IMG/VR virus record: IMGVR_UViG_3300042485_002515 | Span: 1 to 51,616 of that record | Source of the DNA: a virus | Direction: 5' to 3' (one strand) | Length of the DNA stretch: 51,616 nt | Shown here: one piece after another, positions 1,187 to 51,616 of the stretch | How the letters are laid out: every line of letters begins with the position of its first letter | Position numbering within the stretch: the first letter of the stretch is position 1 | The notes under the pieces: generated by a model | Database searches by the model: none | Seen by the model: the letters and a program-made list of their open reading frames with translations, nothing else | Told to the model about the DNA's origin: nothing | Translations under genes and position numbers: made by a program

Positions 1187-1196
1187 GAGAAACCTG

Positions 1197-2303: not shown

Positions 2304-2305
2304 AC

Positions 2306-2313: not shown

Positions 2314-2329
2314 GGAGAAAAGGAAAATT

Positions 2330-3541
2330 ATGTCACAAGCACTATTAGAAAGCCGTTGGGGCGAAACAAAAGACGCTCTGCTCGAAGGCTTAAACGGTTC
2401 GAAAAGAACCACAATGGGTGTAATTCTTGAAAATACCCGCAAGCACTTGATGGAAACTGCAACTGCAGGTGCCACTGCTGCTTCAAATGTAGCTACACTT
2501 AACCGTGTAATTCTACCAGTAATTCGTCGTGTAATGCCGACAGTTATTGCTAACGAAATCGTTGGTGTTCAGCCAATGACTGGACCTGTTGCTCAGATCC
2601 ACACACTACGTGTTCGTTATGCTGACAACACTACTGATACCACAAGTGGATACTATCCAGCAGGTGAAAACGGTAGCACAACAGCAGGCGACGAAGCACT
2701 AAGTCCGTTCAAGATTGCTGTTGCTTATTCTGGTTTAACCAATGGTGGCACTGCTACTAACGGTAGAGCAGCTTCAACAAGCACACTTGAAGGTGTAACA
2801 GGTAACAGAATCAACGTTCAGATTCTAAAGCAAGTTGTGGAAGCCAAGACTCGTAAGTTATCAGCTCGCTGGACTTTCGAAGCTGCACAAGATGCACAAG
2901 CCATGCATGGTTTAGACATCGAAGCAGAAATCATGGCAGCTCTTGCACAAGAGATCACTGTTGAGATCGACCAAGAAATTTTAGGTTCACTACGTAGCCT
3001 TGCAGCAACTGAGTTTACATTTGACCAAGCTGCTGTTAGTGGTACTGCTACTTTCGTTGGTGACGAACACGCTGCTTTGGCTGTTCTAATCAATCGTACA
3101 GCAAACCTAATCGCTTCACGTACACGTCGTGGCGCTGGTAACTGGGCAGTTGTAAGTCCAGCAGCTCTAACTGTGTTACAGAGCGCAACAACTTCAGCAT
3201 TTGCTCGTACAACTGAAGGTACATTTGAAGCACCTACTAACACTAAGTTTGTTGGTACACTAAACGGTGCAATGCGTATCTATGTTGACAGCTATGCACG
3301 CGACAGCCAGGCTGTTTTAGTTGGTTATAAGGGTTCAAGCGAGGCTGATGCAGCCGCGTTCTACTGCCCATATATTCCTCTAATGAGTTCTGGTGTTGTG
3401 TTAGATCCAAGTACATTTGAGCCAGTAGTTGGTTTCATGACTCGTTATGGTTATATCGAGTTAACAAACACAGCGTCATCGTTTGGTAACGCTGCTGACT
3501 ACCTTGGCGAAATTGCTGTTTCAAATCTATCGTTCCAGTAA
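2330..3541 (+). CDS. 23: Major capsid protein (gp23-like)
   Basis: HK97-fold major head protein; the precursor is cleaved by gp21. It is 403 residues, shorter than T4 gp23 (521) but similar to marine T4-like versions. The N terminus (ALLESRWGETKDALLEGL) and the region RVILPVIRRVMPTVIANE-IVGVQPMTGP are typical of gp23. A gp21-type cleavage site L-M-E|T is present at residues 40-42, which would remove an N-terminal peptide of 42 residues. The C-terminal part (GFMTRYGYIELTNT) also matches the family. Start ATG at 2330 follows a purine-rich ribosome site. A strong terminator lies directly behind it (3566-3588). Confidence 0.95.
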   Translation: MSQALLESRWGETKDALLEGLNGSKRTTMGVILENTRKHLMETATAGATAASNVATLNRVILPVIRRVMPTVIANEIVGVQPMTGPVAQIHTLRVRYADNTTDTTSGYYPAGENGSTTAGDEALSPFKIAVAYSGLTNGGTATNGRAASTSTLEGVTGNRINVQILKQVVEAKTRKLSARWTFEAAQDAQAMHGLDIEAEIMAALAQEITVEIDQEILGSLRSLAATEFTFDQAAVSGTATFVGDEHAALAVLINRTANLIASRTRRGAGNWAVVSPAALTVLQSATTSAFARTTEGTFEAPTNTKFVGTLNGAMRIYVDSYARDSQAVLVGYKGSSEADAAAFYCPYIPLMSSGVVLDPSTFEPVVGFMTRYGYIELTNTASSFGNAADYLGEIAVSNLSFQ

Positions 3542-26143: not shown

Positions 26144-26518
26144 ATGAAAATCAAAGACATTATCATTGAGCAAAAAGGTGTGTTAAAAGATCGGGCACGA
26201 TTGGCCACACGTGGGTTAAATAAGTTCTCAGACGCAAAAAAATGGAACGGCGATTACACACTTTATAGACTTGGTTTGGCGTTGGCGTCCACAGACGGTA
26301 AAGAAATGCCAGATGTTGACGAAGAATCTTGGATTGGTAAGTGGAAACTGGCAGCACCCTATACTCAAGCTGAGCAAGACATGCTAAACTTGGCATACAA
26401 AGCAGTGGATGCAAATGTTGAAGATATGAATCACGGAGATATGAAAAGTCAAGAATGTCACACTGTGAACAAATCCAGTCCGGTAGCTGTAAACAAAAAG
26501 AACAAATATGGTGTTTGA
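26144..26518 (+). CDS. Small protein with capsid-targeting-like N terminus
   Basis: 124 residues. N terminus MKIKDIIIE|QKG resembles the T4 internal-protein targeting peptide (MKTYQEFIAE|A) and contains an I-I-E site for the gp21 protease at residue 9. The rest has the segments YTLYRLGLALAST, PDVDEESWIGKWKLAAPYTQ and EDMNHGDMKSQECH, which look like a conserved small domain of unknown role. It follows gp13 by one base with TAGGTT as ribosome site. The packaging idea is inference from the N terminus only. The stop TGA lies inside the promoter region of the gp1 gene. Confidence 0.78.
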   Translation: MKIKDIIIEQKGVLKDRARLATRGLNKFSDAKKWNGDYTLYRLGLALASTDGKEMPDVDEESWIGKWKLAAPYTQAEQDMLNLAYKAVDANVEDMNHGDMKSQECHTVNKSSPVAVNKKNKYGV

Positions 26519-34428: not shown

Positions 34429-34926
34429 ATGACCAAAAAACTCTCAGAACTCTTTGATCTTCCTACTAATTTGCCTTCAACAGAATCTGCTGAATCAAAC
34501 GAAGCTTTGAAAGCCATTGCTGACAACAAAGAAATAATTGCCCGAGTAGACGAAGCTATAGACAAAATTGATATAGCATTGCCTACAGTGCGTGATCTCG
34601 AAGCCAGTGACCAAGAAATGGACGAACTTGCAAACTTGGCTAAAGACAAATTTAACGATCTGATGGATTTAGGCATGAACATGGATCCAAGATTTGGCGG
34701 AGTGGTATTTCAAACAGCAGGCACATTGCTGGGTCATGCTATCACAGCCAAAACAGCCAAAATGGACAAAAAGCTACGTATGGTACAACTACAGCTACAG
34801 AAGGCCCGACTGGACCACCAAGTGAGCAAAGACGCACCAGAGGATCGTCCTATAGATGGACAAGGCATTGTGCTTGACCGTAATGCATTACTGGAACAGA
34901 TTCTCCAAAAGAACAAAAACACATAA
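34429..34926 (+). CDS. 16: Terminase small subunit (gp16-like)
   Basis: DNA-recognition subunit of the packaging motor. 165 residues, essentially the length of T4 gp16 (164), all-helical. The two central helices with DLMDLGMNMDPRFGGVVFQT and LGHAITAKTAKMDKKLRMVQ-LQLQKARLDHQ (~83-135) correspond to the oligomerising coiled-coil hairpin of the family. The C-terminal tail has RNALLEQILQKN. There is no clear ribosome site; see the hairpin before it. The large subunit gp17 is not adjacent as in T4 but 13.6 kb downstream, separated by the internal-protein operon. Confidence 0.8.
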   Translation: MTKKLSELFDLPTNLPSTESAESNEALKAIADNKEIIARVDEAIDKIDIALPTVRDLEASDQEMDELANLAKDKFNDLMDLGMNMDPRFGGVVFQTAGTLLGHAITAKTAKMDKKLRMVQLQLQKARLDHQVSKDAPEDRPIDGQGIVLDRNALLEQILQKNKNT

Positions 34927-34951: not shown

Positions 34952-35572
34952 ATGAAAAGTCTCCACGATTATATAGCAGAACGAAACTCAAACTACAGTT
35001 TTAGGATCAAGGTAGCAAAACAAAACCCCAAAGATATCATGGAAGAAATCAAGAACGCTCTTGATGCTTACGAACTTGTAGATATCACCACACCAAAAAG
35101 TATGCCGGTACAAGAGCATAGAGAATTTCCCAAGTGGGGTGCATGCGAATGTTGGCAATTTGAAGCCACAGTGGCATATCCTACTACTACAGTACAAATC
35201 GCACAATTACTTAAAGAACGCACAGGCATGCAGGCCGAGTGGGTTTGTGTGTACGGCAAACAACAAGCAGATCAAAACGATTATGCCGAAGCTTATGGCA
35301 AGGATCACGAAGGCGCACTATTGTTAGACGGAGAACTCAAAGACGTACCCGGTGGGCAAGATCTTGTGGCAGAAAAGCGCAAAGACAGCTTATTAAAAGA
35401 ACTTGATAAGAAGAGTCCATTACTAACAGGCCCTGGCGAACCAGACTTAGTGACTACCCACGCAAAAGAAAGAACCAAGCCAGCACAAACAACTAATGCA
35501 CTTCCGCAAGGTACTAAGAGTCCTGTAGGTAGCCAACAAAACAAATTACCCCCAATTAAAGGAAGAAAATAA
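34952..35572 (+). CDS. Candidate internal head protein with T4-like targeting peptide
   Basis: 206 residues. The chosen start is ATG 34952 (AGGA upstream, right after a late promoter) rather than an in-frame ATG at 34856 inside gp16. The N terminus MKSLHDYIAE|R closely matches the T4 internal-protein capsid-targeting peptide MKTYQEFIAE|A, including the I-A-E gp21 cut site. Residues ~15-95 form a mixed alpha/beta domain (YSFRIKVAKQNPKDIMEEI; KWGACECWQFEATVAYPTTT). The C-terminal third is a Lys/Pro/Gly-rich tail. No enzymatic motif. Packaging into the head is inferred from the N terminus. Confidence 0.8.
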   Translation: MKSLHDYIAERNSNYSFRIKVAKQNPKDIMEEIKNALDAYELVDITTPKSMPVQEHREFPKWGACECWQFEATVAYPTTTVQIAQLLKERTGMQAEWVCVYGKQQADQNDYAEAYGKDHEGALLLDGELKDVPGGQDLVAEKRKDSLLKELDKKSPLLTGPGEPDLVTTHAKERTKPAQTTNALPQGTKSPVGSQQNKLPPIKGRK

Positions 35573-36549
35573 TGAGCAACAATATCTATGACATCTTGAA
35601 AAAGATGCAACGCCTTGAGTCACCCAAGCAGGTTCTTGCAGAAGGTAAAAAAGCAAAACCTGATTTTGCAGACCTTGACAAGGATGGTGACAAAAAAGAG
35701 CCTATGAAAAAAGCTGCCAAAGAAAAAAACAAAGGCGCAATCGCAGAAGCAGTTGCTCGAGTTGAAAAGAATTTAGCAGAAAAGTACATGAGCTACAAGA
35801 AACGACTGGGCGAAGAGTCTGACATGATTAGAAAAGTTATTCCGGTCAATGTCATTGATGGCCCTGGCGGTTACGAAGAAGCACAAAAGCGTATTAAAGA
35901 TCATGAATCATCAAAAGTAAAGAGACAAGAAATGCCAGGTAAAGAGTTACCTCCAGTAGACGATAGATCTCGACCAGCCGACAAGCCCAAGACTAAAGAA
36001 GTAGATGAAAGTGGCTTACAAGCGTATCTTGGCAAAAAGAAGTATGGCAAAGAAGGTATGCAGGCATTACAGAAAGCAGGCCGCGAAGGTGCAAGTAAAG
36101 AAAAAATGGCCAGCATTCGTGCCCGTCATGACAAGATGGATGAAGACGCATACAATGAAGACATGCTGAGTCCTAAGCAACAAAAAATTGCTCGTATGGC
36201 CGGGGATCCTAAAAAAATTGACGCCAACGATCTAAAAGCTTTGCGAGCCGGTAAGAACAAAAAAGCCGAAGGCAATGCTTTTAGTGGCGCTTTAGATGCA
36301 GCAAGAGACGCTGGCAAATCTGAATTTGAAGTCGACGGAAAAAGCTATAAAGTAAAAGAAGGCTGGGACGAAATGCTAAAAGCACAAAAAGAACGTAGCG
36401 GTCCACAACCCAGTGGCGGATCAGGCATTAAGCAAGGCAAACGTTATGGTGGCGGCGCACAAACCGACGAACCAGACACAGATAACGAAACAGGTGAAGT
36501 AGCTAAAAAAGGCCGCGGTCGCCCTAAAAAAGATAAATTTGCAAAATGA
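35572..36549 (+). CDS. Lys-rich candidate internal protein with AT-hook
   Basis: 325 residues, about a quarter Lys and Arg. The N terminus MSNNIYDILKKMQRLESPKQ runs to a V-L-A-E|G site at residue 24. A DxDxDG loop (DLDKDGD, 34-40) resembles a calcium-binding loop. Short charged modules follow: YLGKKKYGKEGMQALQKAGR (~145-165), ARMAGDPKKIDANDLKALRA and KSEFEVDGKSYKVKEG. The last residues, KKGRGRPKKDKFAK (312-325), contain an AT-hook core (RGRP with flanking Lys), a minor-groove DNA-binding motif. A DNA-binding internal head protein is the best inference. Starts within the stop of the gene before (TAATG). Confidence 0.8.
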   Translation: MSNNIYDILKKMQRLESPKQVLAEGKKAKPDFADLDKDGDKKEPMKKAAKEKNKGAIAEAVARVEKNLAEKYMSYKKRLGEESDMIRKVIPVNVIDGPGGYEEAQKRIKDHESSKVKRQEMPGKELPPVDDRSRPADKPKTKEVDESGLQAYLGKKKYGKEGMQALQKAGREGASKEKMASIRARHDKMDEDAYNEDMLSPKQQKIARMAGDPKKIDANDLKALRAGKNKKAEGNAFSGALDAARDAGKSEFEVDGKSYKVKEGWDEMLKAQKERSGPQPSGGSGIKQGKRYGGGAQTDEPDTDNETGEVAKKGRGRPKKDKFAK

Positions 36550-39500
36550 AAATTCGTGAAATAGCCAAACAGTCTTCATTACAAGAAGGTGCAATATCTA
36601 ACAAAGTGTTACCTGGTTTGAGTTTTGCTGACGCTGGTATCAGAGTGGCTGAAAAAGATTATCCCGGTGCCGCCATTGCTGGCACAGCAGCTGGGCTAAG
36701 TCTAATACCAACAATACCCACACAAGCTGCCAGTATTGGTTTAGAGGCATTTAATCAATTACGCGACGAAGCTGCGCGACGCGGTGGTTGGGGAAATCTT
36801 GGCAGAGATATGATGAAGTCTGTCAGGGATGGTGATTTTGATCATATCCATATGCTACCAGAAGAATTTGACAAATTAGATCAATTAGAACGAGCAGGCA
36901 AACTTGACGAAGGTGGTTTAACAAGTATTCCAGGCTGGATAGCCAAATACGGTGATGATGCTGTTCGGTGGTTAAAAACTGTCGGAAGACGCGATAAACC
37001 AGATGCTCCTGCTTCTAAGCCAGAAGTACCAGATGCCTCGGTACCTTCTAAGAAGCCATACACCAGAGACGAAGATTTGCCTATTGTGGGGCGAGATACA
37101 CCTACTCCACCACCGGCCTCAACTCCTGTAGAATTACCAAAACAAAAACGATTTGAATCAGACAAAGCATATTTAGACAGATTACAAAAAATGGGTCCTG
37201 AGTTTGTGCAAAAGAAAACACAAATGGATCAAGCTCTGATTAGTGCTAATCAAGCAAAAGAGTTAAGTAAAGGACCAGTTAGAAAAGGATTAGAAACAAC
37301 TGGAAAATTCTTAGTAAGGAACCCAATAACATGGGGTGCAGGGGCATACGGAGGATACGAAGCAGCTAAAGAATACGGACCAGATATAGGACGAAAATCG
37401 ATTGAATGGTGGCGACAAGGTCCTGAAAAAGAAATTCTCCAAAAAGCTCCTGAAGGCGAATTGCTGTCAGACATTATAAAAGGTGTAACAGCACAACCTC
37501 CAGCCAATGCACCGGCTCCGGTGACACCAGAAAAACAGCAAGAACTCCCACCGCATATAGATCCTGCCACCGGCAAAACAAGGGACCAAGGCGCCAGACT
37601 TGATGACAAAGAAAAAACATTGACTGAGAAATATCAACAGTTTCTCAATGACGATAAAAAGCCGCAATACACCAAGGAACAGTTTATTCAATTGGCTGCA
37701 AAATATGCCAAGCAGTATGATGTTCCATTGCCTGTAGTCTTACATGCCATGCGTAAGGAAACTGGTGCGTATGATGCAAACACCGCAGCCACAGTTCTTG
37801 GACCCAAAACCAAATATGGACAAGCAGTTGGTGTCATGCAGTTGATGCCATCATTCTTTAAAACATTAAAACCTGAAGATCTAACAAATCCAGATCGAAA
37901 CATTGAAGCTGGTACAAAATTTTTAGCAAACTTGTACAAGACATACGGCAGTGCCGAAGCAGCCCTGGCAGCATACAACGCCGGACCATATAATAAAAAA
38001 TTTAAGGCTTGGCTTAAATCCAATGATCCAAAAGATTTACCGGCACAGACCAGAGAATATCTCTACGGCGATCCACGAAAGAAAACTGTTGGCTATGTTG
38101 ATGATGTAGCACAACAAGTTGCGCTATTGAATCCACCGAGCACCAGAGATAAAGTTGTAAAGGTAGCTACAGACGTATTGGCTGCTGCCACAGGATCAGG
38201 CGACGCACAAGCAGCAAACAGCAAAAAATCTAAAGCTGAAGTCATCAGCGGCCCTCAATATCCACCTCACGGTACACCAATAGAGAAAGTACAACTACCT
38301 GGTCATTGGACCAATCCTGTATTGAAACCTTTAGATGGTAGAGTACACATGCAGTTGCAAGATTTAAGTGGCGAGTTTAAAGCGGCCTTAGATAAAGCCA
38401 TGGCCGATTATGCCAAAGACAATCCAGGAGTTACAATTACTGTAACCAGCGGAGTGAGAACTCCCGAAGATCAAAAGGCTTTGGCCAAGCGAGCAGCAAT
38501 AGAATATGAAAAAATGAAAAGGGGAGAGCCGAACAATTATATACCTGCCTCAAAAGAATTAGCCGGACATGCAGGATATGCCATTGACATGAACACTCCT
38601 GATCTGGTAAAATTTTCCAAATGGTTGCGAAAAAACGATCCATATGACAAAAAAAATCCAAGCAACACAAAATACGGATTGCAAGACGGATTCGAAATAG
38701 CAGACCGTGTGCATTTACAATTGAGAGGCTACGAGCAATTAGATTCAGAAAAGGCCAGAAGAGCATACAATAAAAACTTGCCTATAGATAAACAAATTCT
38801 AACTGCCTCTGATTGGGAATCGTATGTACAACGCACAGAAGCCGAAAAACTGGCTTTAGCGCAGCCTAAAGACAAGAAACTAACCGATCCCGGACTTGGT
38901 GGTGCTCCAGAAGCCCAGGCTGATACAACATCAAAAGCAGATAACAGTAAACCTCTCAAATTTCCTTCTATTAGATCAGATATACCATCCGTTGATTACC
39001 AGTCTCAAGGTGATGACACACCGGCTAAATCAGCTGAAAAGAAAGCAGAAAAGCCAGCTGATAAACCTGCCGACAAAGACAAATCTAAAGCAAAAACTCG
39101 CGTTACAACAGATGCAACGGGAAGAGAAACAACATATACTCAAAATGAAAAAGGCCAATGGGTCGATCCTCGAGGCAATATTATGCCCGCACCCGAAAAA
39201 CCAGGATCAAGAAAAGATCTTGATATCACTGACAAAGGCGGAGACCCCAGTGCAGCAGATTTAGAAAAATCAAGAAACATAACCGGTCGTAAAGATCCTC
39301 TCATCGATCCTGACACTGGTTTTCCTACCACAGAAAAAGCCTTACGCGACAAACTTACTCAGCGTGCCGCCGACGAAAAGGCAGCAGCAGAACGAGAAGC
39401 CAAGCGTATTGCTGACTTAGAAAAAATTCAACGAGATGCAGAAGCCAGGAAAAAGGCCGAAAAACCAGCCGACAAAGAAGCAGGTAAAGCAGATGCAGGC

Positions 39501-40367
39501 ACAGGTCTTGCTGGCACAGACACAGGCAAAGACAAAGGTAAAGCAGATAAACAACAACGTGTGCCAGCTGCACCTGCTGCTGAAGTTCCTGCTGCAGACG
39601 CAAAAGATAAGTCTGCTAAAATAAATGTACGTAAAGAATTTGAAAAGGCCTTTGCAGCAGCAAGAGCCGCACAGGCGTTAAAGACCGGAAAAGGCAGTGG
39701 AGGAACATTCACATGGACAGATCCACGAACTGGTAAAGAAAGTACATATACTACAGACTACGGTGATGAGGTCAAAGATAAAAAGTCAGTAAAGGTGGTA
39801 CCTAAAGCTGAACCTAAAGCCGAACCAAAAGCCGATGCTGGTGCTGACACATACTGGGTAGATCCAAGACTATCAAAAGTGCCATACGATGTTATACGCA
39901 AGCAGATTAAACCTGATTATACAGTGGATGCAGATCCGGATGCAATAAAAGTTCCACGAGCTACAGAACCTGATACAGATACAAAATTGCCATCACAGAC
40001 ACGTAGTGTGAGCGAGCCAGACCGTGCCAATGTATTACGTTCCACAGACGGCACCCCAGTTACATCAGGCACAGGCGAACCGTGGGGTACCGGCACCAGT
40101 ACCAAGAAAGATATAGAACGTGCCAAGGATGAATTGCAGAAAAAAATTGATGATGAAAAATTCAAAAAAGAATTGCAAAAAATTAGTCCTGATTTGTCAG
40201 AACCCGAACAAGGTAATAGATGGATTGACAAATGGAATCAAGGCATAGAAGCACTAACTGGTAAAGAAAGAATGACACCCGATGACATGAACAGGATACG
40301 TGTTCCAGAATCGGTAAATACAGAACTGAATGACATATTATGGTTGGCTGGAAGGGTAAAAAGATAA
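36546..40367 (+). CDS. Large peptidoglycan-degrading virion protein (SLT plus M15-like peptidase)
   Basis: 1273 residues. N terminus MKIREIAKQSSLQE|G has an L-Q-E gp21-type site at residue 14. Residues ~25-65 are hydrophobic and Ala-rich. A lytic transglycosylase (SLT) domain spans ~375-510: catalytic Glu E405 in AMRKE, GVMQLMPSFFK, NIEAGTKFLANLYKTYGS and AALAAYNAGPYNKKFKAWL. A VanY/M15-like domain spans ~595-745: TSGVRTPEDQ (~635), GHAGYAIDM with H675 and D681, and RVHLQLRG with H723. The H-to-D spacing is one residue shorter than the usual HxxGxAxD. The rest (750-1200) is Lys/Ala/Glu low complexity. It probably opens the cell wall during DNA entry. Confidence 0.86.
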   Translation: MKIREIAKQSSLQEGAISNKVLPGLSFADAGIRVAEKDYPGAAIAGTAAGLSLIPTIPTQAASIGLEAFNQLRDEAARRGGWGNLGRDMMKSVRDGDFDHIHMLPEEFDKLDQLERAGKLDEGGLTSIPGWIAKYGDDAVRWLKTVGRRDKPDAPASKPEVPDASVPSKKPYTRDEDLPIVGRDTPTPPPASTPVELPKQKRFESDKAYLDRLQKMGPEFVQKKTQMDQALISANQAKELSKGPVRKGLETTGKFLVRNPITWGAGAYGGYEAAKEYGPDIGRKSIEWWRQGPEKEILQKAPEGELLSDIIKGVTAQPPANAPAPVTPEKQQELPPHIDPATGKTRDQGARLDDKEKTLTEKYQQFLNDDKKPQYTKEQFIQLAAKYAKQYDVPLPVVLHAMRKETGAYDANTAATVLGPKTKYGQAVGVMQLMPSFFKTLKPEDLTNPDRNIEAGTKFLANLYKTYGSAEAALAAYNAGPYNKKFKAWLKSNDPKDLPAQTREYLYGDPRKKTVGYVDDVAQQVALLNPPSTRDKVVKVATDVLAAATGSGDAQAANSKKSKAEVISGPQYPPHGTPIEKVQLPGHWTNPVLKPLDGRVHMQLQDLSGEFKAALDKAMADYAKDNPGVTITVTSGVRTPEDQKALAKRAAIEYEKMKRGEPNNYIPASKELAGHAGYAIDMNTPDLVKFSKWLRKNDPYDKKNPSNTKYGLQDGFEIADRVHLQLRGYEQLDSEKARRAYNKNLPIDKQILTASDWESYVQRTEAEKLALAQPKDKKLTDPGLGGAPEAQADTTSKADNSKPLKFPSIRSDIPSVDYQSQGDDTPAKSAEKKAEKPADKPADKDKSKAKTRVTTDATGRETTYTQNEKGQWVDPRGNIMPAPEKPGSRKDLDITDKGGDPSAADLEKSRNITGRKDPLIDPDTGFPTTEKALRDKLTQRAADEKAAAEREAKRIADLEKIQRDAEARKKAEKPADKEAGKADAGTGLAGTDTGKDKGKADKQQRVPAAPAAEVPAADAKDKSAKINVRKEFEKAFAAARAAQALKTGKGSGGTFTWTDPRTGKESTYTTDYGDEVKDKKSVKVVPKAEPKAEPKADAGADTYWVDPRLSKVPYDVIRKQIKPDYTVDADPDAIKVPRATEPDTDTKLPSQTRSVSEPDRANVLRSTDGTPVTSGTGEPWGTGTSTKKDIERAKDELQKKIDDEKFKKELQKISPDLSEPEQGNRWIDKWNQGIEALTGKERMTPDDMNRIRVPESVNTELNDILWLAGRVKR

Positions 40368-40368
40368 A

Positions 40369-43300
40369 ATGAACATGCGAGAACTAATAAATCTAATAGA
40401 GGCACCGGCTCCTAAACAAGGTGTTACTGGACAAAAACTTGCTCAAACAAGTGGCGGCCAATTTATGAATCGAGCCGATAGAACCAATCAAGCCAAAGTT
40501 GATGCAGCGTTAGGCCCAGGATTCAAAGCAGGAAGTGCAGCAGCCAATCAGGCATTAGCTAAAAAATTCAGTCAGCCACAAGCTGTACCGGCAGCAAACA
40601 CAGCAAGTGCTCAACAATCAGCAGCATTAGACACTTCCAAGGCAAATGCAATTGGTGGGCAACAGGCAGCAACCACGGCAGCAGCACCAGAACCAGACAC
40701 AAGAGGTGCAGCAGCGATGGCAAGTAGATCGGCCCCGGCCGCTGCAAATACAGAGCCAGTTCAAGCAGCAGCTCCTGCTCAAACTTCAGATCAGATTGCA
40801 ACCGCTGCACTAAATGCACAAGATTCAACACCACAAGCTGACACAAGAGGTGCAGCAGCAATGGCCAGTAGATCAACAAGTACTCCTGCTCAAACTTCAG
40901 ATCAGATTGCAACCGCTGCACTAAATGCACAAGATTCAACACCACAAGCTGACACAAGAGGTGCAGCAGCAATGGCCAGTAGATCAACAAGTACTCCTGC
41001 TCAAACAACTCCGGATCAAATACCAACTCAAACAGCAACAGCTCAAAGTATAGGTGCTACTAATTTGCAAGGCGAAAATCCAGCAGCACCAGCACAACAA
41101 AATACAGCAGCACCTGCTCAAGCAGGCGGATATGCTCAGAGTGCCACTGCCGCCACCAATAATCCTGCACCCAAGAGTGACTATCAGCCTGTAGCTGGAA
41201 GTTCTAATTTAGTCTCAAGAACCTCCGATAAAATTGCAGCAGACGCAAAAGCTGGGCCTGGTGGGCAAAATCCTGCAACAAAAAGTTATGCCAGTTTTGG
41301 TGATTTTGCCAGTGCTGTAGGAAACAAAGTTAAAGGTTTTTTTGGTGGCAATCAACCAGCACCAGACGCAACTGCAGGTACTGGTCCTAATTTAGGTACA
41401 GGAACATTAGGCAGCACACCAAATGCACAACAGCCGCCTGCATTTGTGCCGTCAGCTACAACAGCCGGCACCCCAGCTGCGTTTGGTAAAGTTGCCGAAG
41501 CTGATGCGCCAGTGAATTCCGCACCTCAGCAGCCGGCAGCAAAAACTCAAAAAGCACCAAGCATGTACGATGTTGACAAGGCCAACAGAAAAGAAATAGC
41601 AAGTCAATTTGACCCTAATTCAACTTATGTAAATCCCCATGACAAAGATACACGAGCGTCTGCTCCAGGATCAAAGGCAGTAAACACCATGGCTGACTTT
41701 GAAGAAGATGTTGATCATGCATTGGCAGAGATGATGCGCTTGAGTGGTTTAACTTTGAGTGAAAAAGCACCACCAGGCAAGAAGGCCGAACGCATGGTTA
41801 AACACATTAAAAAAGGTTATGCCAAGGACGGTAAACTCACAGACAAAGAAAAGTCAATTGCATTTGCAACTGCATGGAAACAGCACAACAAAGAAAAGGT
41901 AAACGAAGGCATGGACATTATGTTAGACGAAGATGGGCATACACTAAAACATATCGTTAATAGATTCAAACATGAAACTAAAAATTTCATGAATACAGGA
42001 TTTATGGCAGAGAACTTGTATGATGCATTATATGATTATTATCTGGATAGAGGCGACATGCCTTACGGTATTGCCAAGGCAAGAGAAGGTGATCCATACG
42101 AGTGGGTAGAAGAACACTTCTATGCAGACATGGGCAGTCAAATGAGTGAAGGTGCTGTAGCAGAACAAACTGTGGACCCACTGAGTGAATTAGCACGTTT
42201 GGCTGGATTGTCAGAAGACGGTCCTGGATCTGCTATGCTAAATGCCCCAAAGAAAGACACTGATTCATTTGCAGACAGAATGAGAAGTGCAGGAAAAGAA
42301 ATTAGGCGTACGATTGATCGCGCAACATTGCCAGCTGCAATGAGAGCAGATTATGATAGAATTGAAGCAGAAAAAGAAAGAGCCTCAGCTCCTGTAGCAA
42401 CACCAGCAGTCGCTAAAGCTGATGCATTTAAAGATGCAATGGGTTCTGGATCCAACAAAGCACAAGCAGATGACAAATTGAAAGAAATGGGCGACAGTCC
42501 ATTGGCAAGACTCAATCAAATGCCACAAACTAAAGGACAAGAACCAAGTTCGGGTGCAGCGAGCTCGTTCGCACCACGTGAGCGCGAGCGTGTGGTTAGC
42601 CCCAAGATTGACAAATACGAAAAAGACAAAGAACGTGCAGAAAAAGCCAGAAGAGATATTGTTGATAGAGAAAGTCCAGATGCTAATACATTTGGTCGTA
42701 AAATAGGCAAAGCAGTATCAGAACCAGTTGCAGCAATCAAGAGTGCATGGCACGGTGCAACAGATGCCTGGGATCATACTATGGGCAATGATACAGCCCC
42801 AGATCCAAAACCACCAGTTAGTGTTGTTAACAAAAGAGACTGGAAAGGTGACAAGGATAATCCTGCACTAAAAGAAAATGACGAGTTAAATCGTATGCGT
42901 AAAATTGCCGGACTACAGGAATGTGGAGATATGGGCATGGAACGCGATCATATGCAACAAAAAGATCGATTGAATGTTACCACAAACATGAGCAGTGATG
43001 GTACCAAGGACGTCACTATCAATGCACAAGGTGACGCCGCAGAAGATCTACTGTCTATGTTGAAACTGGCAGGTATGGAAAGACATCATCAGCCTACAAT
43101 GGTCATGATTGACCGCGATGAAGAAATGATGGAACGAGAAGAAACTCCTGTACCTGATGATGGTAATGTATTAGGTGGTATGGGAGATTTTGAACAAATA
43201 GATGCAATAGACGAAGCCAAGAAGAAGCGTATTACACGTCATAGCAACACACCCGACGAAGAATATCAAACCGTAGATAGTATTCTACGTCAAGGCAATG

Positions 43301-43902
43301 ATCTCAACAGAGAAAAACGCCAGTACAAGAAAGAATACCCCGGCGACAATCCAATGTCTGAAAGCATGCTTGATCAAGACTTAAACGACATCCTTGAGAG
43401 CATCTTGATTCGCGAAGAACCTATTCCAACTACTACAGATCCTGAGACAGGACGAGTAAAAGCAACATTACCCTCAAATTTTTTCCGTCCTGGTAAAAAA
43501 CGTGATCGTGCCAGTCAAGAGATACCAATGGAACCTGAATCGCCAGAATCTCGTGTAACTGGGCCACGCAGTATGAAAATACCTGGTGAGCGAACAGGTA
43601 CAGAAAACTTTGGTAAAGACAAAGAAGTTGACGAAGGTTGGGAAGATGTAAAAACAGGTGTATCTAACTTTGTTGGAGATCTTTTTAACACAGACGACAG
43701 TATACGCAGAAGAAGCGGGCAGTTTCGTGATCTTGAAGCTATGCAACAAAAGTATAAACCTGGAACTCCAGAGTATGATCAATTGGAAATGCGTAAGACC
43801 AAGCAAAAAGAAAGGTATTACGGAGACCAAGGTGAAGTGGTAGGTAAAGACGGCGAACCAATTAAAGTATTACCACCTGATCAATGGAAAGGTGGCAAGT
43901 GA
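40369..43902 (+). CDS. Ala/Gln-rich candidate internal polyprotein
   Basis: 1177 residues with no enzyme domain. N terminus MNMRELINLIE|A has an L-I-E gp21-type site at residue 11. Residues ~20-400 are Ala/Gln/Pro-rich disordered sequence containing two identical 37-residue repeats (DNA 40773-40994). Short modules of the form RLAGL plus Glu recur: EMMRLSGLTLSE (~454), ELARLAGLSED (~607), RMRKIAGLQEC (~842), LLSMLKLAGME (~895). Charged modules include AERMVKHIKKGYAKDGK (~475) and NVTTNMSSDGTKDVTINAQG (~866-885). Many L/I-x-E sites could let gp21 cut it into pieces. The last base of its stop is the A of the next ATG. Confidence 0.8.
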   Translation: MNMRELINLIEAPAPKQGVTGQKLAQTSGGQFMNRADRTNQAKVDAALGPGFKAGSAAANQALAKKFSQPQAVPAANTASAQQSAALDTSKANAIGGQQAATTAAAPEPDTRGAAAMASRSAPAAANTEPVQAAAPAQTSDQIATAALNAQDSTPQADTRGAAAMASRSTSTPAQTSDQIATAALNAQDSTPQADTRGAAAMASRSTSTPAQTTPDQIPTQTATAQSIGATNLQGENPAAPAQQNTAAPAQAGGYAQSATAATNNPAPKSDYQPVAGSSNLVSRTSDKIAADAKAGPGGQNPATKSYASFGDFASAVGNKVKGFFGGNQPAPDATAGTGPNLGTGTLGSTPNAQQPPAFVPSATTAGTPAAFGKVAEADAPVNSAPQQPAAKTQKAPSMYDVDKANRKEIASQFDPNSTYVNPHDKDTRASAPGSKAVNTMADFEEDVDHALAEMMRLSGLTLSEKAPPGKKAERMVKHIKKGYAKDGKLTDKEKSIAFATAWKQHNKEKVNEGMDIMLDEDGHTLKHIVNRFKHETKNFMNTGFMAENLYDALYDYYLDRGDMPYGIAKAREGDPYEWVEEHFYADMGSQMSEGAVAEQTVDPLSELARLAGLSEDGPGSAMLNAPKKDTDSFADRMRSAGKEIRRTIDRATLPAAMRADYDRIEAEKERASAPVATPAVAKADAFKDAMGSGSNKAQADDKLKEMGDSPLARLNQMPQTKGQEPSSGAASSFAPRERERVVSPKIDKYEKDKERAEKARRDIVDRESPDANTFGRKIGKAVSEPVAAIKSAWHGATDAWDHTMGNDTAPDPKPPVSVVNKRDWKGDKDNPALKENDELNRMRKIAGLQECGDMGMERDHMQQKDRLNVTTNMSSDGTKDVTINAQGDAAEDLLSMLKLAGMERHHQPTMVMIDRDEEMMEREETPVPDDGNVLGGMGDFEQIDAIDEAKKKRITRHSNTPDEEYQTVDSILRQGNDLNREKRQYKKEYPGDNPMSESMLDQDLNDILESILIREEPIPTTTDPETGRVKATLPSNFFRPGKKRDRASQEIPMEPESPESRVTGPRSMKIPGERTGTENFGKDKEVDEGWEDVKTGVSNFVGDLFNTDDSIRRRSGQFRDLEAMQQKYKPGTPEYDQLEMRKTKQKERYYGDQGEVVGKDGEPIKVLPPDQWKGGK
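40773..40994 (+). repeat. Identical 111-bp tandem repeat
   Basis: Two adjacent copies (40773-40883 and 40884-40994) are identical base for base; a partial third begins at 40995 and a diverged partial copy lies upstream near 40697. The period is 37 codons. Identity at synonymous positions points to recent duplication. Confidence 0.95.
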
Positions 43903-44960
43903 TGAAAACGTTTCGCGAATATCTCAACGAAGCAGAACTGACAGAAGGAAATCCTGCTGTTGGGGATATTTTTGAGTTAGAAATAGCCAGAGACGAAACT
44001 TTGCTCGAAACTTATATTGTTGATGTGTTTGAGGATGGAATAGTATTAGAAGCAGACGACACCATGATGAGAATTTTAACGCATGTTGGATATATAACAG
44101 AAGATTCAAACATGCCCACTGCTCGAGATTCTATCAGTCCAATACATTCAAATGTGAACAGAGACAAAAGCTCCGATGACGACCTCATGGACAAAGACTC
44201 AGGTGCCACACCACCTGCTCGTCCTACACGCGATGCGGTAGACACTAAGCCGCTAACCGAGCCAAAAAACAAAAAAGATCCCAAAGACTACATGGTGCAT
44301 GAGGCGCCCGAAGGATGGGGACAAGATACCATGACCAACAAAGACGGTTCGGTGATGAAATACAACCCCGATGATGACAGTTACAGCATGGTATCTCCTC
44401 CTACGGTAAAGCCTACTAAAACGTCAATGTCGGTGATTGATACTCATAGATCACAAGATCGCAGCTCGTCTAAAGGAGATAGTACACACAAGCAGGAATT
44501 TACATCTGCTTCGTTTGCAAGAGATCCCAAAACTGGCGCAGGCGATTATTACATATCTCGATCAACAGATGATGATTACGACGATGACTTTCAGCAAGAT
44601 GTAAGTGCCCCTTGGATGAACTATACGCAAGCCAAAGCAAAATATGATTCAGATCTTATGTTTGGTAAAAAAACAGCCATGCCTCAAGGGCCAATGAGTC
44701 AGTTCAGAGCACCAACCAATGAAGCCAAATATCAAGGTCGTGAAGTTCCGTTAGGCAAGAAGATGAAGGGCGATGTTAAGAAGAGTAAAGTGTATGTAAG
44801 AGGACCCAAAGGTAATGTAGTTAAAGTGAACTTTGGCGATCCTAACATGACAATCAAAAAGTCAAATCCAGCCCGTCGTAAAAGTTTCAGAGCAAGACAC
44901 AATTGCGCCAATCCAGGACCAAGATGGAAAGCAAGGTACTGGTCATGTAGGAGTTGGTAA
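43902..44960 (+). CDS. Candidate internal protein with T4-like targeting peptide and basic C-terminal domain
   Basis: 352 residues. The start at 43902 is chosen over an in-frame ATG at 43884 because it gives MKTFREYLNE|A, nearly the T4 internal-protein targeting peptide MKTYQEFIAE|A, with a second L-T-E|G site at 13-15. Residues ~20-65 (VGDIFELEIARDETLLETYI; VFEDGIVLEADDTM) form a small beta domain. The centre is Asp/Ser/Lys-rich. The C-terminal ~75 residues are a strongly basic unit: REVPLGKKMKGDVKKSKVYV, GPKGNVVKVNFGDPNMTIKK, ARRKSFRARHNCANPGPRWK and the end RYWSCRSW, with two Cys. That unit may bind DNA or metal; it is unassigned. Confidence 0.82.
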   Translation: MKTFREYLNEAELTEGNPAVGDIFELEIARDETLLETYIVDVFEDGIVLEADDTMMRILTHVGYITEDSNMPTARDSISPIHSNVNRDKSSDDDLMDKDSGATPPARPTRDAVDTKPLTEPKNKKDPKDYMVHEAPEGWGQDTMTNKDGSVMKYNPDDDSYSMVSPPTVKPTKTSMSVIDTHRSQDRSSSKGDSTHKQEFTSASFARDPKTGAGDYYISRSTDDDYDDDFQQDVSAPWMNYTQAKAKYDSDLMFGKKTAMPQGPMSQFRAPTNEAKYQGREVPLGKKMKGDVKKSKVYVRGPKGNVVKVNFGDPNMTIKKSNPARRKSFRARHNCANPGPRWKARYWSCRSW

Positions 44961-45745
44961 TGACAGATCCAAGATTTTTTAGACAGTATTTAGAGATATT
45001 AAAAGAAGGCCCTCCTGCAGGTGTTGGTCCTAATGCACCTATAAAACAACCTGTGCAGCAGCCAGCTAATACCAGTCAAGAACCAAGCCAATTTCAACAG
45101 GCCAAGGATGCAGTAGGGCAACAATATCAAAATTACAAAGATATATCGGGACAACTTGATCAAGGTGTACAACAAGGATTAATCAGCAAAGATGTGGCCG
45201 ATAAAACAAGAAGTTATGCACAAGGTTCAATGTTAAGAGGTGGTTGGGAGGCAGGTAAAGCAGCAATGCAAGGTCGTGATCCATCATCGGCCTATGTAGG
45301 TAGCTTGATTAGATCAATGGGTAATTTGGCTGCTGATTCTGGTCTTGATGATGCTGCAAAAAAACTTGGACAATTTGCAAGTCAGTATCGAGGTCCTAAT
45401 GCCAAAGATATAACAAAAGATCCCGCATACCTAAAAGCATCACCGGAACAACAAGCACAAGCCCGTAAAGATTTTGAAGCAATTAAATCATTGCCTGATG
45501 ATGAATACAATTATATTTTTGGTGGCAATGCGTTTAAGGAACGTGGCGCACAGGCAGCTCAAGTTGGTCAAGACATGATTGATCAAAAAGATTGGGGTAC
45601 AGGTCGTAGCGCAGGGTTTTCACCAAAAGCAAATGAACTTTTTGGATTAGATCCAACTCGTCAGGCAACTGATGCAGAAATGCAAGCGGCAGCAACAGGT
45701 ACCAACGAAGAATTAGATAGACTCAAACAACTTATTAGAAGATAA
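44960..45745 (+). CDS. Candidate internal protein (DPRFFR family)
   Basis: 261 residues. ATG 44960 follows TAGGAG; a TTG six bases earlier in frame is less likely. N terminus MTDPRFFRQYLEILKE|G ends in an L-K-E gp21-type site at residue 16 and is paralogous to the next gene's start. The body is helical, Gln/Ala-rich (QQYQNYKDISGQLDQGVQQG; YVGSLIRSMGNLAADSGLDD; SPEQQAQARKDFEAIKSLPD). It ends ELDRLKQLIRR. No known domain. It overlaps both neighbours by one base and lies in the middle of the internal-protein run. Confidence 0.78.
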   Translation: MTDPRFFRQYLEILKEGPPAGVGPNAPIKQPVQQPANTSQEPSQFQQAKDAVGQQYQNYKDISGQLDQGVQQGLISKDVADKTRSYAQGSMLRGGWEAGKAAMQGRDPSSAYVGSLIRSMGNLAADSGLDDAAKKLGQFASQYRGPNAKDITKDPAYLKASPEQQAQARKDFEAIKSLPDDEYNYIFGGNAFKERGAQAAQVGQDMIDQKDWGTGRSAGFSPKANELFGLDPTRQATDAEMQAAATGTNEELDRLKQLIRR

Positions 45746-46200
45746 TGAGCGATCCAAGATTTTTTAGACGATACTTAGATATTCTTGACGAACAACCTGT
45801 CACTGCAAACATTGATGACTACACAAGCGTGACTGTTGATCCTACAGCAAAAAATCTTGCAATGCAAACCAAGATTGGGGACTTGGATCTCAAAGCAACG
45901 CATGACCGTTCCGCAATCCCGGCCAATCAAATTTCAGCCAATTACCAAGTGGACCCTAAATTAAAGGTTGGCGGCACACACACTCAAGCAGGATATAAAG
46001 GACAAATGACTCCTACCACTCAAATTTCAGCCAACTACGACGATCCTGATGTTGGTAAAGCTGATCTACAAGTAGATAAAGGTGCCATGTTCCAGGGTGC
46101 AGGAAAAAATATTCAGCAAGGAAATCCCGCTATCGTAACTGCCAAATTTACAAACCCACAAGGCCAAACAGCCACTTACAATACAAACAGAAACTTATAA
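45745..46200 (+). CDS. Candidate internal protein (DPRFFR family), beta-rich
   Basis: 151 residues. N terminus MSDPRFFRRYLDILDE|Q is nearly identical in pattern to that of the gene before and has an L-D-E gp21-type site at residue 16. After it, the sequence is beta-rich with a repeated strand motif QISANYQVD (~62-70) and QISANYDDP (~93-101), suggesting an antiparallel barrel or beta meander (TKIGDLDLKATHD; LKVGGTHTQAGYKGQM). It resembles outer-membrane-type beta hairpins in pattern, but it is too short to call a barrel. The function is unknown. The start overlaps the preceding stop by one base. Confidence 0.75.
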   Translation: MSDPRFFRRYLDILDEQPVTANIDDYTSVTVDPTAKNLAMQTKIGDLDLKATHDRSAIPANQISANYQVDPKLKVGGTHTQAGYKGQMTPTTQISANYDDPDVGKADLQVDKGAMFQGAGKNIQQGNPAIVTAKFTNPQGQTATYNTNRNL

Positions 46201-46699: not shown

Positions 46700-46867
46700 A
46701 TGAAATGGATTTTTGTTCTAATGGTGTTAGTGGTTGATGATGGAGTATGGAGAGCATGGAACAGTTATCCTACTTTAGCAGAATGCGACGAAGTTATACA
46801 AGTGATAACTCATCATAGAGAAGAAAAAATTAAAGCCTATTGTTTGGCCAGGCAAGTAGATGAATGA
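46700..46867 (+). CDS. Small membrane-anchored or secreted peptide
   Basis: 55 residues: MKWIFVLMVLVVDDGVWRAW, then NSYPTLAECDEVIQVITHHR and EEKIKAYCLARQVDE. A short positively charged start and a hydrophobic run (IFVLMVLVV) suggest a membrane anchor or signal; two Cys could form a disulphide. It begins right after the stop of the candidate 28-residue frame and overlaps the next gene by eight bases. The function is unknown; it follows the secreted nuclease and could act in the same compartment. Confidence 0.6.
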   Translation: MKWIFVLMVLVVDDGVWRAWNSYPTLAECDEVIQVITHHREEKIKAYCLARQVDE

Positions 46868-48514: not shown

Positions 48515-50083
48515 ATGAAAACCAATGATACAACTATTATAAAGAGTCCGTACCAAAAGGTCAACTTTTCTGAGGATCAAATTGTAGAGTTTATGCGATG
48601 TGCTGATCCTGAATCGGGACCAGAATACTTTATGAGCAACTATTTCTACATTCAGCACCCGGTTCGGGGAAAAATGCTATATCAACCTTTTGAGTATCAA
48701 CGGAAACTTATAGATACTTATCACAATAATAGATTTAGCATCAGCCTGATGCCTCGACAAACCGGCAAAACCACAAGTGCCGCAGGATACTTGCTTTGGT
48801 TTGCTATGTTTAGACCAGATTCAACCATATTAATTGCAGCACACAAGTATACCGGTGCCCAAGAAATCATGCAACGTGTTCGTTATGCCTACGAACTATG
48901 TCCAGACTGGATCAGGGCAGGTGTTACCAGCTATAACAAAGGATCAATTGATTTTGAAAATGGAAGTCGCATTGTAAGCCAAACAACAACAGAGACTACC
49001 GGCCGAGGTATGAGTATTACCCTACTATACTGTGACGAGTTTGCATTCGTTAGACCCACAATTGCCAAAGAGTTTTGGACTTCAATATCACCGACACTCA
49101 GCACTGGAGGTAAAGCAATTATTACCAGTACACCTAATAGTGATGAAGATCAATTTGCGTTTATATGGAAACAGGCAAATAAAACCATTGATGAGTTTGG
49201 AAATCCACGAACAGATGGCTTGGGCGTAAATGGATTTAAAGGATATCAGGCCAGCTGGTGGGAGCATCCAGATAGAGACCAACAATGGAAACAAGAAGAG
49301 ATTGGTCGAATTGGGGAAGAACGTTTCAGACGCGAGCACGGGTGTGAGTTTTTGATCTATGACGAAACCTTGATTAACTCAATTAAACTGTCAGAACTGG
49401 TGAGTAAAGAGCCGCTTGAATTACAAGGACAAGTAAGGTGGTTTCAAAAACCGCAGAGAAACAAAACATATGTGATTGGACTTGATCCCAGTTTAGGAAC
49501 AGGAGGCGACTATGCAGCAATTGAAGTTTTTGAATTGCCTACGATGGTACAAGTGGCCGAGTGGCAGCACAACAAGACACCTGTGCAAAGACAAATCGCT
49601 ATTCTTAAAGAAATTTGTGAGTACATATACGATACCGTTGGTACTACCAATGACATATACTATAGTGTAGAGAATAACACCTTAGGTGAAGCAGCCTTGG
49701 TAGTTATAGCAGAATTTGGCGAAGAAAATATTAAAGGAACATTTTTAAGCCAACCTATAAAAGCCGGGCAAGCAAGACTTCATAGAAAAGGATTTACAAC
49801 TACAAATAAAACAAAATTAGCAGTATGCGCCAAATTGAAAAATTTAATTGAAAACAACAAAATGACACTAAACAGTAAAAATTTAATTAGCGAGCTAAAA
49901 ACATTTGTAGCCAGTGGCGCAGGATTTGCAGCCAAAATTGGAGAAACGGACGATTTGGTATCAAGCACTTTATTGGTACTTAGAGTAATACAGGCTTTGC
50001 AAAGTTTTGATGCAGAGCTTGATGAAAAATTACGTGACAAAACTGATGACTACTTGGCACCAATGCCATTTATATTGGTATGA
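48515..50083 (+). CDS. 17: Terminase large subunit (gp17-like)
   Basis: ATPase and nuclease that packages DNA. 522 residues (T4 gp17 610). Walker A is RQTGKTT (81-87, K85) preceded by SLMP; Walker B is LLYCDE (170-175, D174/E175); a coupling segment IITSTPNSDED is near 202-212. The C-terminal RNase H-type nuclease starts VIGLDPSLGTGGDYAAIEVF (D324) and ends with the acidic GETDDLVSS motif (~490-500). The first ~25 residues precede the ATPase domain; the ribosome site is weak. Start ATG 48515 is the upstream-most that does not enter the HNH gene. Its stop overlaps the next start (ATGA). Confidence 0.95.
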   Translation: MKTNDTTIIKSPYQKVNFSEDQIVEFMRCADPESGPEYFMSNYFYIQHPVRGKMLYQPFEYQRKLIDTYHNNRFSISLMPRQTGKTTSAAGYLLWFAMFRPDSTILIAAHKYTGAQEIMQRVRYAYELCPDWIRAGVTSYNKGSIDFENGSRIVSQTTTETTGRGMSITLLYCDEFAFVRPTIAKEFWTSISPTLSTGGKAIITSTPNSDEDQFAFIWKQANKTIDEFGNPRTDGLGVNGFKGYQASWWEHPDRDQQWKQEEIGRIGEERFRREHGCEFLIYDETLINSIKLSELVSKEPLELQGQVRWFQKPQRNKTYVIGLDPSLGTGGDYAAIEVFELPTMVQVAEWQHNKTPVQRQIAILKEICEYIYDTVGTTNDIYYSVENNTLGEAALVVIAEFGEENIKGTFLSQPIKAGQARLHRKGFTTTNKTKLAVCAKLKNLIENNKMTLNSKNLISELKTFVASGAGFAAKIGETDDLVSSTLLVLRVIQALQSFDAELDEKLRDKTDDYLAPMPFILV

Positions 50084-50631: not shown

Positions 50632-50640
50632 TACATTATG
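50623..50640 (+). promoter_or_regulatory. Late promoter with start codon in a hairpin
   Basis: CATAAATA (50623-50630), seven of eight to TATAAATA. CATAA (50623-50627) can pair with TTATG (50636-50640), which contains the ATG at 50638. Predicted RNA start near 50636 would give a nearly leaderless RNA with no hairpin. The stem is only 5 bp. Confidence 0.55.
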
Positions 50641-51616
50641 CGTGAATTAGATAAAATATCAGCTGCTTTATTTGACAAAATACGTGCTCGCTTTGATCAT
50701 GTGAATATTGGCGACGAAAATGCCCAAAGAGTTACAGACCCAGAAAAAGCAAGATTTCTAAATTTTGATTACATCAGCGAAGATGGTGAGAATTTTGGTA
50801 ATGTTACTATCAGTCTAATAGATGAAGACAGTTTAAAAATCTACTTTGGCGCAAATATTACCGAAGCACTGGACGAAGAACAAGAAACAGAATGGTATAA
50901 ATTTTTGCGTGGGCTCCGCGAGTTTGCAAGACGTAACATGTTGAATTTTGATGTTAGGGATATTAATCGTAGTAATTTAGATCTTAAAGACATTAAACAA
51001 CAGAGTGTATCAGACGCCACTTACGATAAAGAAGAATTGGCCATTGCCGAAGGAAGATTGTACGGACACGGCAATAACCGCAGAGTAAGTTTCGGTGATG
51101 TAGGCGAACACAAACTTATTATCAAGCACAGAGATCAAATTGATCCAGAACGGCACGGTGCAAGAGCCAGACAAATAGAACATGTGTTCATCGAAACTCC
51201 AGTTGGAGAAAGATTCCTATTAGATCATACCAATTTACATGGTGCCAGAGCTACAGCCAATCATTTACGCCACGGTGGTAACATTGGCGACGAAGGTAGT
51301 CAATTAATTAACGAAATGGTCAAAGAAATGGCCAGCATGCGCCATTTTGTGCGTTCGATGAAAAATAGAACATTTGAAGATGCTGAAACTTCGGGCATGG
51401 TGGAAGCAGCCATTTATCGCTACAACGAAGTTAAAAATAATTTGAAACGTTTTCAAGGTCGAAAAGGCCATGAATTACTAATAGACATGTGTGATCGCCG
51501 TTACAATGACATGGACGAAACAGTGGATGTAGACTCATTGCGCGAGCGTTTTGTGAAGAAAATTTACGATGATAGGTTCAACGAAGCACTACCATATGTT
51601 TATCGTGCATACAAAA
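50638..51616 (+). CDS. Conserved-type phage protein, 3' truncated
   Basis: The frame from ATG 50638 stays open to the window end, at least 326 residues. N terminus MRELDKISAALFDKIRARFD; then YISEDGENFGNVTISLIDED, TEWYKFLRGLREFARRNMLN, and RRVSFGDVGEHKLIIKHRDQ with IEHVFIETPVGERFLLDHTN and LHGARATANHLRHGGNIGDE (~165-215). The centre is rich in His and Arg; the C-terminal part is helical (KEMASMRHFVRSMKNRTFED). There is no ribosome site before the ATG (see late element). I do not recognise the family. A virion or assembly role is suggested by the late promoter and position after gp17. Confidence 0.75.
   Translation, partial: MRELDKISAALFDKIRARFDHVNIGDENAQRVTDPEKARFLNFDYISEDGENFGNVTISLIDEDSLKIYFGANITEALDEEQETEWYKFLRGLREFARRNMLNFDVRDINRSNLDLKDIKQQSVSDATYDKEELAIAEGRLYGHGNNRRVSFGDVGEHKLIIKHRDQIDPERHGARARQIEHVFIETPVGERFLLDHTNLHGARATANHLRHGGNIGDEGSQLINEMVKEMASMRHFVRSMKNRTFEDAETSGMVEAAIYRYNEVKNNLKRFQGRKGHELLIDMCDRRYNDMDETVDVDSLRERFVKKIYDDRFNEALPYVYRAYK

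Follow-up and report, generated by a model that had tools for sequence, protein, structure and literature searches.

Seven contiguous genes at 34952-46200 of IMG/VR record IMGVR_UViG_3300042485_002515, a 51.6-kb fragment (positions 1 to 51,616, hereafter the window) of an uncultivated T4-like jumbo phage, encode proteins whose N-termini end in the short motif [LI]xE, as do the capsid targeting sequences (CTS) of T4 internal proteins. We consider it probable, at roughly 80%, that this block, located between a gp16-like gene and gp17, codes for proteins of the prohead core and for cargo, each with a short targeting peptide that is removed by the prohead protease gp21 after [LI]xE in a T4-like manner. 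In T4, residues 4 and 7 of the peptide serve targeting and residues 8 and 10 processing, with cleavage after L/I-x-E (PMC9026906). The features of the block and one further gene with such a start are listed below (a slash marks the predicted cut; a number before it, where given, is the residue number of the P1 glutamate).

34952..35572, + strand: protein 1, start MKSLHDYIAE/R; conserved virion structural family
35572..36549, + strand: protein 2, start MSNNIYDIL...VLAE24/G
36505-36531, + strand: AT-hook GRGRPKK at the C-terminus of protein 2, common to relatives
36546..40367, + strand: protein 3, start MKIREIAKQSSLQE14/G; cell-wall protein bearing an SLT domain
37692-38006, + strand: SLT transglycosylase domain (PF01464) of protein 3, residues 383-487; Pfam 60.9 bits, cut-off 21.3, 1e-16
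38382-38639, + strand: weak VanY-like region of protein 3; sub-threshold Pfam match, 0.003
40311-40364 after the cut, + strand: predicted cleavable C-terminal tail of protein 3, VPE/SVNTELNDILWLAGRVKR, from tail conservation
40369..43902, + strand: protein 4, start MNMRELINLIE11/A; N-terminal module swapped in relatives
41722-41751, 42181-42210 and 43048-43077, + strand: LAG helices of protein 4, from the sequence motif
43902..44960, + strand: protein 5, start MKTFREYLNE10/A; small beta domain, disordered linker and C-terminal domain ending ARYWSCRSW
44960..45745, + strand: protein 6, start MTDPRFFRQYLEILKE16/G, of the DPRFFR type
45745..46200, + strand: protein 7, start MSDPRFFRRYLDILDE16/Q; protein 6-type start on a different body
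26144..26518, + strand: 124-aa protein outside the block, start MKIKDIIIE/Q; same type as the MKINEII-E starts of relatives and of Pseudomonas phage PA5oct 0150 and 0238

All seven open reading frames (ORFs) begin as the original prediction had quoted them, the site ending at residues 10, 24, 14, 11, 10, 16 and 16 of proteins 1 to 7, and the eighth start that it named at 26144 is present with its site ending at residue 9. For three genes a start shorter than the longest ORF was chosen (34952 instead of 34856, 43902 instead of 43884, and 44960 instead of 44954). The T4 start cited there as the model, MKTYQEFIAE/A, was found in ipII and ipIII on NC_000866, with ipI reading MKTFKEFTSTTTPVSTITE/A. 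The putative targeting peptides of the window include MSDPRFFRRYLDILDEQ and MKTFREYLNEA. Residues 4 and 7 are aromatic or hydrophobic as in T4 in proteins 1 and 5 (MKSLHDY, MKTFREY), while the spacing differs in the DPRFFR, MKINEII and MNMRELI starts. A site ending at residues 8-26 occurs in 7/7 block genes compared to 7/39 genes elsewhere in the window (Fisher p 6e-5); three of these other seven are gp21, gp22 and gp23, without which p is 1e-5. The product of the per-protein shuffle probabilities was 1e-6, and 2e-5 when protein 7 was dropped because its start resembles that of protein 6. As the block had been picked after the motif was seen, these p-values are optimistic, and the relatives provide the real test.

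The gp23 of this phage shares 68-70% identity with its counterparts in Sinorhizobium phage Phosso (469 kb genome), Vibrio phage 2.275.O (349 kb) and PA5oct (287 kb), and its terminase is nearest to the terminases of PA5oct, Phosso and Agrobacterium Atu_ph07. Gene 21, which the original prediction had reported, was recovered as a Peptidase_S77 gene with the motifs GVSSRG and DHPDDLKINL read from the sequence; Peptidase_S77 was also found in 5/8 larger contigs examined. It adjoins the genes of the scaffold and the major capsid protein at 545-3541:

545..1186, + strand: gp21 prohead protease, predicted processing enzyme; Peptidase_S77, Pfam PF03420, 89 bits, E 3e-25
1197..2303, + strand: gp22-type scaffold, from tblastn to the gp22 position of PA5oct, Phosso, Atu_ph07 and GAP32 and from the tails of relatives
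2268-2300, + strand: gp22 C-terminal tail VFEIKRLAGLK, preceded by VLSE/S (E335)
2330..3541, + strand: gp23 major capsid protein, from identity to PA5oct and Phosso gp23

The gp23 propeptide likely ends at HLME/TATAG (E42), as read from its sequence.

About 100 related loci, for which labels such as L093 are used, were collected by scans with gp17, with proteins 3, 4 and 5 and with a DNA pattern for MSDPRFFRxY, and starts in these relatives were called blind to the motif. In their intervals from the gp16-like gene to gp17, [LI]xE ended at residues 8-26 in 98/198 distinct proteins, where shuffling predicts 33; for the relatives' genes outside the block the count was 97/414 versus 65 by shuffling. 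The starts form the families MK[ST]xxxYLxE, M[ST]DPRFFRxYLDILxE, MKINEIIxE, MKIxEIxKQSPLxE, MNMRxLIxLxE and MSNNIYDIL...LxE, and the relatives of proteins 2-7 keep the site, apart from some protein-5 relatives. Among 21 distinct DPRFFR starts the P1 glutamate is invariant, and 20 have L or I at P3 and the remaining one V, whereas no position of the peptide varies more freely than P2 (2.4 bits). Since P3 is encoded by seven different codons, the constraint acts on the protein; an RNA-level cause of the conserved starts was rejected, as fixed residues use several codons. Likewise, E9 is kept in 18 of 19 MKINEII-type starts, with I or L at position 7 and position 8 free, and conservation collapses from residue 10. 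A targeting peptide with a gp21 site at its end should show such a pattern, which also agrees with the T4 rules (PMC9026906).

Furthermore, the same peptides stand before unrelated bodies and the same body follows different peptides. DPRFFR-type starts were found on seven body clusters that share no detectable mutual similarity. The protein-4 body (57-71% identical over 300-435 residues) begins with MNMKKLLKLFE in L108, and with MNPKLMRQYSDILNE, MNPNLIRKYSDILGE or MDPKLLRMYSNMLGE in L102, L209 and L215. The N-terminal peptides thereby appear to be modules independent of the attached body. Taken together, the conservation pattern and the exchangeability make T4-type targeting with gp21 cleavage the best explanation of these starts.

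The distribution of internal [LI]xE sites bears on what would become of the proteins after targeting. Such sites number 18 in gp22 (7.6 expected) and 11 in protein 4 (5.2 expected). Protein 3 is depleted of them (4 versus 8.2 expected), as are several of its relatives (4 versus 8.4 and 3 versus 8.1), and the bodies of proteins 6 and 7 have none. Enrichment in protein 4 like that in gp22 suggests that this protein probably belongs to the core and is cut up, and is not delivered. In addition, non-terminal LAG motifs in the block proteins are followed by [LI]xE within the next 9 residues in 33/75 cases, compared to 5.5 expected. Both enrichments would suit a different account, in which the whole block is accessory scaffold that is destroyed by gp21 and leaves the head, like T4 gp67 and gp68, and in which the peptides are core-docking signals without any delivered cargo. 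We regard this as possible, at clearly lower probability than head cargo: the sites that such destruction would use are scarce in protein 3 and in a number of its relatives and absent from the bodies of proteins 6 and 7, and one slot of the block is filled by enzymes of several kinds. Survival of proteins 3, 6 and 7 as cargo is the simplest reading of these counts, and protein 3 in particular looks like retained cargo.

The slot held by protein 3 encodes an SLT transglycosylase in the window, L093 and L096, a GDSL-type hydrolase in L116, L103 and L152 (scoring near the cut-off with one or both of the GDSL models), and a GH19 enzyme in L102 and L117, with a sub-cutoff match in L108; LysM or peptidoglycan-binding domains occur in proteins neighbouring the slot. 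The cell-wall enzyme that the original prediction placed in the set is borne out by the SLT domain (1e-16). An additional M15/VanY reading of protein 3 had been made by eye and was rejected, the Pfam match being sub-threshold and a search for PDB sequence matches giving none. Slot enzymes with a complete N-terminus carry targeting-type starts, and nearly all C-termini of these cell-wall proteins (SLT, GDSL, GH19, LysM) carry a common tail, ELxxILxLAG[RKL]xK (for example ELNDILWLAGRVKR), with [LIV]xE followed by S or G at 16-21 residues from the end in 13/14 proteins examined.

The same type of tail terminates the scaffold. The gp22 proteins end in IKRLAGLK in the window, LRRLAGIK in PA5oct, LKRLAGIKK in Atu_ph07, LTKIAGIRK in Vibrio 2.275.O and IAKLSGMDKKR in GAP32, and upstream of every one of these tails stands an [LI]xE with S or G after it. 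Apart from phrog_13484 there are 24 distinct LAG-ending proteins, 18 of which have a site no more than 32 residues before the tail; shuffling predicts 3.2 such sites among all 64 LAG-ending proteins. In relatives of the phrog_13484 head protein encoded at 50638, which end V[NSQ]E-[DE]-[LI]xx[LI]xxL[AS]GLxK, the helix directly follows V[NSQ]E. LAG motifs number 98 in the block proteins, compared to 1.6 expected, and a strict LAG search of PA5oct gave p 0.04. LAG as a general phage feature was unsupported, with 7 motifs in 1,056 proteins from other viral contigs, where 5.4 were expected; in 447 further proteins there were 8 versus 1.6 expected, some of which resemble membrane segments. The scaffold-like C-terminal tail was absent from the T4 stretch examined, and we found no literature on this motif, a kind that is hardly searchable by text.

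We propose that the LAG tail is a core- or capsid-binding tag removed by gp21. In its full form, to which we give about even odds, this proposal holds that [LIV]xE/S plus the amphipathic LAG helix constitutes a second, cleavable head-loading tag at the C-terminus, copying the tail by which gp22 would hold a partner (capsid, portal or core). Because unrelated cell-wall enzyme families carry both tags, the position of protein 3 would be a plug-in slot for head-carried wall-opening enzymes in a T4-like contractile virion.

In T4-like phages, the peptidoglycan hydrolases of the virion usually belong to the tail, as does gp5 in the T4 baseplate, and protein 3 has PHROG matches annotated as lytic tail fibre. 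The wall enzymes of the slot might accordingly be tail or baseplate entry enzymes whose peptides dock on the tail and not on the head. We consider this unlikely, given that the same starts occur on proteins without enzyme domains, that the C-terminal tail of the wall enzymes is that of the scaffold gp22, and that the wall-enzyme genes lie between the head-closure and terminase genes.

To look beyond the related loci, one pattern covering the peptide families was written after the T4 and family starts had been seen. In T4 60-106 kb (46 kb, 62 ORFs) it matched exactly ipI, ipII and ipIII, and it matched 0/71 ORFs in lambda and 0/44 in T7. Because the T4 form was built into the pattern, recovery of the T4 proteins tests specificity and not discovery. 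In PA5oct, the pattern matched 3/83 virion proteins detected by mass spectrometry (MS) and 0/286 others (p ~0.01, by hand), and in two whole larger relatives a strict form matched 6/171 and 3/424 genes, with about 0 after shuffling. EST35_0150 (start MKINDIITE/G) and EST35_0238 (MKIKDILVE/S) of PA5oct were both MS-detected in virions.

Several observations weigh against T4-type head targeting of the whole block. The T4 recovery is no independent test. Bare [LI]xE was rejected as a predictor of virion proteins, with 11/83 MS-detected PA5oct proteins carrying it versus 42/286 of the rest, and a matrix derived from the window block and the T4 internal proteins was likewise set aside, its enrichment in PA5oct being weak (MS had detected 4 of its 6 best-ranked proteins, p 0.02, but the ranking as a whole was not shifted). 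Aromatics at both positions 4 and 7 occur in few starts only, and some protein-5 relatives carry MKTLREYIEQVEES, which requires V at P3. Protein 1 has [LI]xE in only 10/18 homologues, E10 being missing in PA5oct, Phosso, L154 and L109. Its N-terminal helix is CTS-like, with K2 and Y7 kept, and AlphaFold models a helix at 4-11 followed by a ferredoxin-like fold (predicted local distance difference test about 90) with generic PDB matches, the top viral matches being uncharacterised phage proteins; its PA5oct homologue 0202 corresponds to phrog_14802. The claim of a T4-type capsid-targeting run is therefore sustained by peptide exchange, P3/P1 conservation and the PA5oct MS matches, and falls short for protein 1, whose site is unconserved, and for protein 4, probably a core protein that is cut up. 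For the same two reasons, the roughly 3,800 packaged residues of the original prediction agree with the summed length of 3,745 residues for the seven proteins as an upper bound only. Chance, suggested by a short and common site (carried as background by roughly one in six to one in four proteins, and in its bare form not enriched among the virion proteins of PA5oct) and by a run picked after being seen, is still possible for protein 1 and very improbable for the block, being already contradicted for the DPRFFR, MKINEII, MNMRELI and MKIxEI families by P3 and P1 conservation with free P2 over dozens of relatives, by codon variation and by swapping between unrelated bodies.

Under T4-type head targeting, the short amphipathic N-terminal peptide would dock each protein on the gp22-type scaffold core, so that tagged proteins would be loaded before the DNA, and gp21 would remove the peptide after [LI]xE at head maturation, as for T4 internal proteins. 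The C-terminal tag would probably be removed at the same gp21 step. Core-like proteins (4, perhaps 2) would be cut many times, while the bodies of the cargo, protein 3 with its cell-wall-cutting domain and proteins 5, 6 and 7, would remain whole in the mature head with the DNA, probably to be ejected with it, and might act in cell entry. The AT-hook protein of the original prediction is protein 2, whose GRGRPKK motif is consistent with a location among packaged DNA.

Compared to T4 IPI, IPII, IPIII and Alt, the block shares a short N-terminal peptide, a predicted cut after [LI]xE, unrelated mature bodies and gp21/gp22/gp23, and the start of protein 5 has the MKT[FY]xE[FY] form of T4 internal proteins. 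The likeness is confined to the peptide, as Pfam and PHROG gave no matches between the block proteins and the T4 internal-protein families. Unlike in T4, at least 6 cargo or core genes are clustered beside the terminase, several peptide families occur (DPRFFR, MKINEII, MNMRELI), the cell-wall proteins are large and have multiple domains, and a C-terminal tail like that of the scaffold is present. C-terminal cleavage is known for T4 Alt too (PMC9026906). Phages of the phiKZ-like/SPN3US type contain many inner-head proteins whose propeptides are removed by a prohead protease after x-x-E (PMC5694885, PMC9026906); these propeptides are mostly >100 residues and a gp22 counterpart is unconfirmed (PMC5694885), whereas the peptides described here are 9-24 residues long and occur alongside a gp22-type scaffold. 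The internal virion protein gp16 of T7, annotated with an endolysin/transglycosylase domain, resembles protein 3 as a large wall-cutting protein inside the head, a location that for protein 3 is predicted; T7 gp16 sits in the core stack without cleavable peptide or prohead protease, while the present phage has a contractile tail. EST35_0150 and 0238 of PA5oct have similar starts, but their genes are isolated, and the PA5oct gp16-gp17 interval encodes two other structural proteins only. T4 capsid targeting sequences, gp21 cleavage, variable internal proteins and the large processed inner-head sets of phiKZ-like phages were established already; new in the T4-like jumbo phages are the extent and clustering of such proteins, several peptide families that can replace one another, cell-wall enzymes that can do the same, and a tail shared with the scaffold.

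Further genes place the block within the window:

27631: tail sheath; contractile tail
33983: head-closure protein, phrog_218
34429..34926: probable small terminase, phrog_16202, inferred from its position upstream of the block
48515..50083, + strand: gp17 terminase large subunit, downstream border of the cargo block; 55% identical to PA5oct gp17
50638..51616, + strand: head protein phrog_13484, cut off by the window end; PHROG match

If 34429-34926 encodes gp16, the cargo block is inserted between gp16 and gp17. The interval from the gp16-like gene to gp17 in Phosso and PA5oct (L207:18768-21587 and L206:18431-19927) contains one or two other structural or LAG-bearing proteins; both phages lack this cluster there, and so the cargo block varies by lineage. 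Directly after it, 46210-46644 encodes a nuclease-like protein (VYDAQxVRVNDGDTVVI) with a signal peptide, and other relatives have a different signal-peptide protein at this position. The protein encoded at 46860-47069 has homologues of 60-150 aa in most gp17 loci, with an N-terminal LAG helix (IEQLRVLAGI), a conserved end GSNISVTGNEKGELMKKHDIRPGTDAWFKLWFSKPYLTGE and no PHROG match.

Parts of the block proteins also occur elsewhere. Residues 462-517 of protein 4 (41752-41919), after its first LAG-[LI]xE site, form the module KAPPGKKAERMVKHIKKGYAKDGKLTDKEKSIAFATAWKQHNKEK (phrog_30733), which recurs in many other viral contigs (L168-L205). For protein 5, AlphaFold gave a helix at 4-16 and two confident small folded ends with no convincing PDB fold match, and its last 80 residues (44724-44957; KYQGREVPLGKKM...ARHNCANPGPRWKARYWSCRSW) are a widespread domain found in at least 600 stretches (L005-L081), including phages of Pelagibacter, Roseobacter, Flavobacterium and Methylophilales, podo- and siphoviruses among them. 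In other viral contigs, MKTFI[EQ]FISE-type starts precede a nucleotidyltransferase-like sequence, FAFGRFNPPTVGH (L038:1539, L039:733), so head-targeting-like starts may occur on metabolic enzymes. In another viral contig group (L168, L174, L182, L191, L196, L199, L204), MRAFEFLTE/-type starts are found on 365-455-aa proteins sharing GREFNHLEDLVF.

T4 has only a few internal proteins, most of them small, which had left the generality and modularity of head loading open. In the phages described here one loading logic would serve a whole cluster, and its swappable peptides and swappable wall enzymes amount to natural fusion experiments that yield a list of short peptides, while the shared scaffold tail makes a testable claim on the binding partner of the gp22 C-terminus. 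If this holds true, it could be predicted from sequence, for many unannotated virion proteins of jumbo phages, which are cargo and where they are likely cut, and phage heads could be loaded with proteins by means of new peptide pairs.

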